Source: Acidobacteriota bacterium (GTDB lineage: Bacteria; Acidobacteriota; Blastocatellia; RBC074). From it: a DNA stretch of 64,000 nucleotides. The notes under the pieces were generated by a model. That model made no database searches. It saw only the letters and a program-made list of their open reading frames with translations, and was not told the DNA's origin. The DNA is taken from NCBI GenBank assembly GCA_016196035.1, contig JACPYM010000002.1, positions 62,001 through 126,000 of the forward strand, in the 5' to 3' direction. This document shows, piece after piece, positions 11,901 through 22,194 of the stretch (within the stretch, counting starts at the first letter, position 1; every line of letters begins with the position of its first letter). A program made the position numbers and the translations under genes.

Positions 11901-11932
11901 GTGTCAGTAGCCCGCGCGTGGGCTACTGACAC
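11901..11932. repeat. Palindromic repeat, GTGTCAGTAGCCC family, copy 1
   Basis: GTGTCAGTAGCCC (11901-11913) and its exact complement (11920-11932) form a 13-bp stem with a 6-base loop of CG-rich sequence. The same arm recurs at 22137-22194. The hairpin follows the gene at 11268-11837 and could act as a transcript end, but only a short T-run (CTTTT) follows seven bases later. Confidence 0.6.
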
Positions 11933-20510: not shown

Positions 20511-20539
20511 TTGACACTATAGCACTGGTGTACTATATT
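20511..20539 (+). promoter_or_regulatory. Near-consensus sigma70 promoter with no gene downstream
   Basis: TTGACA (20511-20516), exactly 17 bp, then TATATT (20534-20539) is the best promoter match in the window. Transcription should start near 20546 on the plus strand. No open frame of convincing length follows until the minus-strand pseudogene at 21135, so the transcript is probably non-coding and could reach the terminator at 21006-21050. Confidence 0.65.
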
Positions 20540-20843
20540 CACCTTCGTCAGATCGGACCCAGTCCTACAAAGCTTGCGAAAAAGTATTAAGCGTCGTTTC
20601 AATACCGCAATGCTTTCCGGTTTGGCTTAATTCCCTGTTACGATTTGGTTTTGAGCAAAACGTGGTCGAGAGAATGGTTGGTGGAATTGGTGATGGTGGC
20701 CGGTGAAAGGTGAGTCAGGTGCGCGGTCGTCCCACTGCTGCAAATATCAGAATCGCACTCACACAAAGCGTTCTTCAATCCCGCAACATTCACAAAAAAT
20801 TTATTTGTTTTCCTGTCGAGTTTTCGCTACTACCGACTGAGAC

Positions 20844-20917
20844 GTCAGTAGGGGATGCCTGGCCCTCGGATCGGTATATCTGAGACAGGCGTCAGCATTC
20901 GTGTTGGCGCCTGTCTC
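20844..20917 (+). ncRNA. Candidate structured RNA, unit 1 (conserved hairpin plus long stem)
   Basis: The unit begins with GTCAGTAGGGGATGCCTG (20844-20861) continuing GCC, a motif that can form a 5-bp stem GUCAG/CUGGC around a 10-base loop UAGGGGAUGC. After a 17-base linker a very stable stem of about 15 bp follows (20882-20896 with 20903-20917, loop AUUCGU). The second unit 127 bases downstream repeats the same design. There is no T-run after this stem, so it may be an internal domain of a longer RNA rather than a separate transcript. Confidence 0.45.
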
Positions 20918-20970
20918 CAGAATAACACAAGCAATTATTCAGAAATCCTACGAGCTTCTCGCCCTCTTGT

Positions 20971-21050
20971 GTCAGTAGGGGATGCCTGACCTAGAGTAGC
21001 GGAAGGGCTGAGGCAGATGCGATCACGGGCGTTTGCCTCAGCCATTTTTT
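20971..21050 (+). ncRNA. Candidate structured RNA, unit 2 with intrinsic terminator
   Basis: GTCAGTAGGGGATGCCTG (20971-20988) continues ACC, identical to unit 1 in 20 of 21 positions. The one difference turns a G-U pair of the first hairpin into A-U (GUCAG/CUGAC), keeping the pairing. A 14-base linker leads to a stem of about 15 bp (21006-21020 with 21029-21043) whose sequence is unrelated to that of unit 1, followed by ATTTTTT (21044-21050), an intrinsic terminator on the plus strand. Conserved 5' element plus different terminal stem is what is expected for duplicated small RNAs. Confidence 0.5.
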
Positions 21051-21134
21051 GTTTAAGCACGGCCATTGGGCGTTGGTATCCAGACTGTTACTTCAATCAA
21101 TTTCCCTCTTTAACATTTTCCCAAGCCTCAACTG

Positions 21135-22118
21135 CTACCTCGCCCTGATCGCACAAAACCTGAGTGAATAGAACAACCGCCACCACACTTGCGGAAAATT
21201 CCGCGCAGGAATTCTCATTGATTCCCTGGTCGTGTTGTCGGTGCCGGAGTAGTTGCCGGTAGCGCCTCGCCACGGGCTAGCGGTAGCGGCGGCATTTGCT
21301 CCTTGCTGAATTGCGGTAGCTATTTCAGTGCGCATGGCGAGAACGTAAAGTGCACCCGCAATGGCGATAGCGGATTTCTTGACGCCGTCTTCGATGATTC
21401 GTTCGTAGTTGTCGAGGTTCGTATGATGCGTATGAGTGTCGTATTCGATGGGGTACTGTCTCATCCCGATTCCCGGCAGTCCGGCTTGGTGCTGTCGGTG
21501 CCGCCCAGGTTGCGACTGCGCAAAGCAACCGCGCCATAAACGCCAAGGTCTTCAAAGGGCGCGAGCGCCTGGCGCAAAAACTGCGGCGGCTTCCGCTGGT
21601 CCGAAAACGCCGCGCCGTGGACTTGGCCGGTGCCGGTATCCACATTGAAGTAGCCGCCAAATTTGAAGAACTCCAGCTTGGGATTTCGGCTGAGTTGAAG
21701 TGTTCCTTGACGTAAGCCTGCGAACCAAGCAGCCTTTCTTCTTCGCCGCTCCAAAGCGCGACGCGGATGGTACGGTGCGGTTTAACGCCGATGACTTTCA
21801 GGATGCGCGCGGCCTCCATCAGCGCGGCCAGTGACATTGTCGGTCGCCGCGTGTCACGAATCGAGATGCCCGCCGAGCATAACCACTTCATCTTTCGTAT
21901 GCGTGCCTTGAATCTCTGAAATTGCGTTGTACGAGGTGCGGCCTTCGGGATAGCTGCGGTTGACGATGTCGAACTCCAATTCGACCGGCGTACCATCGGC
22001 CAGGAGGCGCGCGATGCGCCCGTAATCTTCGTTACGCATCAGCATCGTTGGCGGGGCCGTCGCCGGATCGTAGGTGCGGTTGTTGAGGGCGATGATTTGG
22101 CCGTAGTGGCTTATAGCG
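21135..22118 (-). pseudogene. M28-family aminopeptidase pseudogene (several frameshifts, 5' end lost)
   Basis: Pieces of one zinc aminopeptidase are spread over three frames on the minus strand: [10 protein letters not shown] and [29 protein letters not shown] (22045-21854), then [20 protein letters not shown] and [19 protein letters not shown] (metal ligands HxD and EE), then [20 protein letters not shown] with [11 protein letters not shown], and finally [20 protein letters not shown] with the last metal histidine. The order is that of PA-M28 peptidases. At least three frameshifts and a missing segment after GGHLDS make it non-functional. The 5' end stops at a palindromic repeat near 22110-22194. 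Confidence 0.8.
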
Positions 22119-22136: not shown

Positions 22137-22194
22137 TGTCAGTAGCCCGCGCGTCAGCCAGTCAAGCCCGGCTGACGCGCGGGCTACTGACACA
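22137..22194. repeat. Palindromic repeat, GTGTCAGTAGCCC family, copy 2 (24-bp perfect arms)
   Basis: The arms at 22137-22160 and 22171-22194 are perfect complements; the outer 19 bases match the arm of the copy at 11901. Just outside, at 22112-22125, lies TATAGCGGTTTGC, which recurs in the palindrome at 29439-29500, so two repeat families meet here. The pseudogene to the left breaks off at this point. Confidence 0.7.

Follow-up and report, generated by a model that had tools for sequence, protein, structure and literature searches.

An invariant hairpin tip on a covarying stem points to a family of tandem structured RNAs in Acidobacteriota

The window, by which we mean the whole 64,000-nucleotide (64-kb) stretch of acidobacterial DNA that was analysed, contains an array of two RNA-like units between an open reading frame (ORF) without known function, downstream of frr, and a degraded gene on the opposite strand. 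The nearest upstream ORF lies ~400 bp before the array, with a promoter-like site in between (Table 1), and no ORF of at least 60 amino acids was found between 20422 and 21135, in agreement with the original prediction that no coding frame covers the units. A scan of the window confirmed the 21-base motif from which the two units had been recognised, at 20844-20864 and 20971-20991 on the plus strand, 127 bp apart and identical at 20 of 21 bases. The single G/A difference keeps a base pair, as had been proposed, by turning U-G into U-A. No further copy of the motif was found in the 64-kb window at up to three mismatches, nor in 100 shuffles of it, and the 18-base core, allowed one mismatch, occurred in the whole 9.6 Mb genome only at the window's two sites.

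The motif had been described as the conserved head of each unit, and it proved to be part of a 46-51 nt hairpin (H1) that starts ~17-20 nt upstream of the tip. The supposed ten-base loop is likewise better read as a 3-bp GUA/UGC inner helix closing a GGGGA pentaloop, with a 1-nt bulge below. A stem of about 15 bp had been described after each motif; this holds for the second unit, whereas the corresponding hairpin (H2) of the first unit has 19 pairs. The T6 terminator assigned to the second unit was also found, its H2 stem running directly into an ATTTTTT tail, and no intrinsic terminator was detected at the first unit. The 215-nt segment 20836-21050 folds 5.1 SD better than dinucleotide-shuffled sequences. 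Taken singly, the hairpins of the two units (W1 and W2) are no better than those with shuffled arms (z of −0.9 and −0.3), so that the case for them rests on homology. Promoter-like sites in the region numbered two, compared with 2.1 expected in shuffles, and the one listed in Table 1 is the best candidate start for a ~500 nt transcript through both units.

Table 1. Predicted parts of the two units and associated signals in the window
Feature	Position	Strand	Basis
Promoter-like TTGACA-17-TATATT, 11/12 consensus match	20511..20539	+	consensus match only
Unit 1 H1, 18 pairs, 46 nt	20831..20876	+	RNAfold; homology to 12 other units
Unit 1 invariant tip GTAGGGGATGC, GUA/UGC helix and GGGGA loop	20848..20858	+	
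Unit 1 H2, 19 pairs, starting 2 nt past H1, without T-run	20879..20921	+	
Unit 2 H1, 19 pairs, 51 nt	20955..21005	+	RNAfold; homology
Unit 2 invariant tip GTAGGGGATGC	20975..20985	+	
Unit 2 H2, 15 pairs, 0 nt past H1; intrinsic terminator stem	21006..21043	+	
ATTTTTT tail of the unit 2 terminator	21044..21050	+	

Other features were observed around the array. The minus strand of 21135-22045 holds overlapping ORFs in several frames that together, judged by eye, resemble a broken M28-type peptidase gene. About 60 bp past the terminator, at 21106-21115, lies CTCTTTAACA, identical to the E. coli rrn boxA core. A palindromic repeat starting GTCAGTAGCCCGCGCG occurs at 22138-22191, where it forms a long inverted repeat, and at 11903; a 16-mer of this repeat has 23 exact copies in the same genome compared with none for the reversed control. 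The string GTCAGTAG is common to this repeat and to the motif of the units, probably by coincidence.

Rfam 15 gave no matches in the window, and only weak, chance-type hits appeared at E values up to 10, consistent with the earlier suggestion of an RNA not previously known, and a literature search for structured and small RNAs of acidobacteria found little RNA biology. A pattern search of 58 genomes detected the core in the genome of the window (G000) and in a genome of the same genus (G001). BLAST with the region of the array revealed three copies in G001 on contig C1076, together with a weak one on C1115, and reading of the C1115 DNA gave three copies. A covariance model of these eight units (R1; arrays W, A and B) detected two units in tandem in G006 and one unit in G008, and a scan for the neighbouring surface protein described below led to two more units in L242 (JAGNMH010000411.1), from an acidobacterial metagenome assembly, which matches a G009 hit on contig C810. 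In total, 13 units were found in six arrays, five of which hold two or three tandem units: W1 and W2 in the window, A1-A3 and B1-B3 in G001, C1 and C2 in G006, D1 in G008, and E1 and E2 in L242. Homologues with tandem copies had been predicted, and the 11 further units, from four other genomes, form five further arrays, four of them tandem (two or three units). The carriers are the two genomes of the window's genus, one with a single array and the other with two three-unit arrays, plus three genomes from a second genus of the same family; they make up five of the 11 family genomes examined, all apparently draft assemblies, with one to six confident copies each.

In the searches made, matches outside the carrier family were at chance level only. 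A hairpin-only model (R2) run over 162 genomes of the class found members of the same family only. Over 396 genomes of the phylum, it found G000 and G006 together with seven weak single matches of 24-29 bits, about the number expected by chance at E 0.02. Weak single R1 hits in G001 (contig C1007), G024, G040 and G041 were dropped; the first three regions were read, and R2 gave no match on the C1007 and G041 stretches. R1 also gave minus-strand hits to the stems of array A. Low-scoring R2 hits in family genomes (E 1-5) were read and dropped, the one in G009 excepted. The plasmid collection held no match to the element, and three phage matches were 27 nt long and of the chance type. A 16-letter scan of viral contigs gave four sites on four contigs, one of 27 bits with a partly extended stem (L198) and three of 22 bits, and no second unit with the tip was found beside any of them; L201 was another weak match (24 bits). 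Past array B, at L036:1190-1250, a hairpin with a GAGGC/GCCTC stem, whose loop contains AGGGGAT, is followed by a hairpin with a T-run, and the former is perhaps a decayed unit.

Comparison of the predicted folds revealed a common architecture. In 13/13 units H1 is a bulged hairpin of 41-57 nt and 16-21 pairs, made up of an outer helix, a middle helix (P2), a 1-nt bulge on the 3' side or a 1x1 mismatch, and the tip GUA-GGGGA-UGC, which is identical in 12 of the 13 units and has a final A instead of C in E1. H2 starts 0, 1, 2 or 4 nt after H1 in every unit, and H1 followed by H2 was recovered in all 13 units compared with 99 of 2,600 arm-shuffled controls. For the eleven units besides W1 and W2, hairpin z values against arm shuffles ranged from −1.7 to −5.6. 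In the units bulged on one side only, the G can alternatively form the closing pair with the second C, in competition with the 3-bp inner helix, so that the tip geometry of these units is provisional.

The stems of the relatives showed strong covariation, as expected from the compensatory changes that had been predicted. In a fixed alignment of nine rows, representing seven distinct ones, 7 of 11 pairs had changes on both sides and 87% of the cells paired; all five measures exceeded all 500 shuffles, and sliding the partner by 1-3 columns reduced pairing to 21-38%. When the 11 distinct units were compared in a register of our own, double changes were found in 7/7 pair columns of P2, the cells of this kind numbering 24 compared with 7.0 ± 2.2 for shuffles; the type of bulge or mismatch was chosen here per unit to fit, which favours pairing, but the nine-row alignment, which has no such freedom, agrees. 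A MAFFT alignment of the whole of H1 was left out because the outer helix was out of register. Furthermore, P2 contains nine G-U pairs and the tip an invariant U-G, the plus strand folds better in 10 of 13 units (the exceptions being W2, B2 and B3), and T-runs follow H2 on the same strand as the element in W2, A1, A2 and A3, pointing to a plus-strand RNA. Consensus scans found no intrinsic terminator in arrays B and C and no promoter-like site in arrays A or B. Collectively, the conserved tip on a covarying stem makes a structured RNA well supported at the level of sequence.

A surface-protein gene terminates within each of arrays C, D and E, its stop codon being the UAG of the first tip; the encoded proteins end in ..FPPQGCQ, ..FPPSCL or ..FPAQGCQ, and the one at array D has many DUF11 domains. 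Array B begins ~110 bp (within ~113 bp) past a gene of the same C-terminal family. Instead of the conserved intergenic position that had been predicted, four arrays (B, C, D and E) thus overlap or follow the stop codon of a co-directional surface-protein gene. Of the five arrays whose upstream sequence is visible, four lie at a co-directional gene end or no more than ~113 bp from it; the window array has no adjoining co-directional gene 3' end, and array A, which lies ~30 bp from a contig end with its upstream side cut off, was left out of the count. On the downstream side, the ORF lists for W, A, B and C showed a next gene of opposite orientation in W, A and C and a co-directional one in B only. 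The frr region was also located in relatives, and the genome-wide model search covered what lies downstream of it there.

The C-terminal domain of these surface proteins is ~290 aa long and restricted to the family (for example, L181:5020-5895, L180:5596-6453 and L036:5-646). It mostly ends in FPPxC and a stop, giving a C-terminal cysteine, lies in open frames that range from several hundred residues to thousands, and is not covered by any Pfam or NCBIfam model. We found 11-32 copies per genome in 11/11 family genomes and none in the 18 others. The domain also occurs on contigs labelled Gammaproteobacteria (L263), Limisphaerales (L269) and Ignavibacteriae (L294), which are most likely mis-binned acidobacterial contigs. 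The tip was found near the C-terminus in 4 of 63 distinct surface-protein copies, and R2 applied to 65 named loci matched L242 only. On a poorly resolved tree of the surface genes, the four fall in three lineages, those of C and E being sister genes, and clustering as low was seen in 30 of 500 shuffles; with three lineages and so little resolution, neither vertical descent nor movement is established. Since such genes would make up well under 1% of a genome, the link between the element and this gene family looks real, yet it appears neither obligatory nor a matter of simple shared descent.

Several known kinds of element were compared with the arrays and rejected. A riboswitch or leader attenuator does not fit the opposite strand of the next downstream gene in W, A and C, B alone having a co-directional one. 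Type III toxin-antitoxin RNAs consist of tandem repeats followed by a toxin gene, and no plausible co-directional gene lies directly downstream in W, A and C. Reading of the sequences set aside a mini-ORF starting from the AUG in the tip, as mini-ORFs are not conserved between units; attC sites, as conservation lies in the tip instead of the base; a diversity-generating retroelement, as the listed ORFs carry no retro-element signs; and stop-codon readthrough.

The tip, the stem covariation, the geometry of H1 and H2, the tandem copies and the plus polarity are thus read directly from the aligned units. To explain them we tentatively favour, while holding it somewhat short of probable, a new family of structured RNAs that act as tandem small RNAs or as mRNA 3' ends and whose tip docks a partner in trans, likelier a protein than an mRNA. 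A pair of copies spaced 127 bp apart in a single genome would also fit chance similarity or plain local duplication without function, but diverged units in five genomes keep the tip and the pairing while the stem sequence changes, and this covariation refutes such a reading in practice, leaving it hardly credible. A palindromic repeat that acts as DNA, in the manner of REP or MITE elements, could account for tandem duplication at unrelated locations, in a genome where at least one further palindromic repeat occurs, but is highly improbable. REP elements form many dispersed palindrome copies with GTAG at their foot; the carriers here have one to six copies, with GTAG at the tip. The G-U pairs and the better folding of the plus strand, the fixed orientation relative to genes and T-runs, the absence of plasmid relatives and the short, chance-type phage matches also speak against a DNA repeat.

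Two further RNA-level explanations deserve more weight. The arrays could be cis-acting 3'-end structures that protect the mRNA of the upstream gene or terminate it, with no partner in trans. The strong hairpins, the terminators in W2 and A1-A3 and the proximity of four of five arrays to a co-directional gene end are consistent with this, but a plain stabiliser or terminator needs no invariant 11-nt tip on a covarying stem, and the window array stands well apart from the nearest upstream ORF, with the promoter-like site between, so that we consider it unlikely though worth keeping in view. We regard it as rather doubtful that the units are tandem sibling antisense sRNAs whose G-rich tip (GGGGAU) opens to pair with C-rich sites near the start codons of targets. 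Such a shared seed would also look like an invariant tip, arrays W and A have the tandem layout with terminators, and tandem sibling sRNAs are a known kind, as the available part of one article describes (PMC4211561). However, the tip is partly helical in most folds, which makes the open ten-base antisense loop of the original prediction less likely than a shaped recognition tip. Moreover, the exact 11-mer of the tip gave five matches in its own 9.6 Mb genome, both strands counted, two of them the array, and the three non-self matches (one for the reversed control) showed, when read by eye, no sign of a start-codon site.

The docking of a partner in trans agrees with the invariance of the tip on a freely changing stem, which looks like a recognition site, and a protein is favoured over pairing through an open antisense seed because base pairing takes up much of the tip in the predicted folds. 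Each unit would form a rod of two adjoining hairpins, in which H1 presents the tip as a putative docking site and H2 could act as an intrinsic terminator in the window's genus; several units in a row would provide several docking sites. The window array may be transcribed as a tandem small RNA from the promoter-like site near 20511 or processed from an upstream transcript. In relatives, the unit would form the 3' end of surface-protein mRNAs with the UAG stop inside the tip, suggesting that the stand-alone arrays may descend from 3'-UTR-type RNAs that gained independence. A more specific model, which we consider a long shot, is that the tip is recognised by an RNA-binding protein that manages the giant surface-protein mRNAs, the stand-alone arrays being competing sponges. 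As the stop codon lies inside the binding hairpin, which a terminating ribosome would melt, translation would gate binding. An invariant 11-nt tip on a covarying stem, occurring both in stand-alone arrays and across the stop codons of surface genes, makes a compact object of study, and if it binds a protein it would open up the post-transcriptional control of surface proteins in this acidobacterial group.

Comparison with known systems shows partial likeness to several. The boxB hairpin of phage lambda has a GNR(N)A pentaloop, and GNRNA is a loop recognised by protein; GGGGA fits the pattern, a resemblance only, and unlike boxB the element lies at 3' ends rather than in leaders and has no antitermination context. 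Sponges of the CsrB/RsmZ type carry a hairpin with a GGA-containing loop that is repeated several times in each RNA. The units likewise have GGA in several hairpin loops (GGGGA in 13/13), but in their tip GGGGA is invariant and the pairs flanking it are fixed. The GGA loop makes CsrA an obvious candidate partner; csrA is present in G000 and was not found in G001 (73% complete), G006 (96%), G008 (98%) or G009, and its lack in the nearly complete carriers G006 and G008 excludes CsrA as a general partner. Csr/Rsm is mentioned in the available part of PMC4211561, where PrrF1/PrrF2, OmrA/OmrB and AbcR1/AbcR2 are described as tandem sibling sRNAs. As in the siblings described there, related units stand in direct tandem, some with terminators, and the read-through of PrrF into a longer RNA would fit W1, which has no T-run. 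Unlike in those siblings, conservation centres on the shaped tip of a hairpin and not on an unpaired seed, we found no separate promoters, and some copies extend over a gene's stop codon. OppZ and CarZ, 3'-UTR-derived sRNAs (PMC7398697), resemble the element in lying at mRNA 3' ends, and arrays C, D and E include the stop codon in the structure; unlike OppZ and CarZ, the units form tandem repeats and are also seen where no parent gene is evident. Tandem small RNAs, like 3'-end RNAs, are a known kind; the present family is new to the libraries searched.
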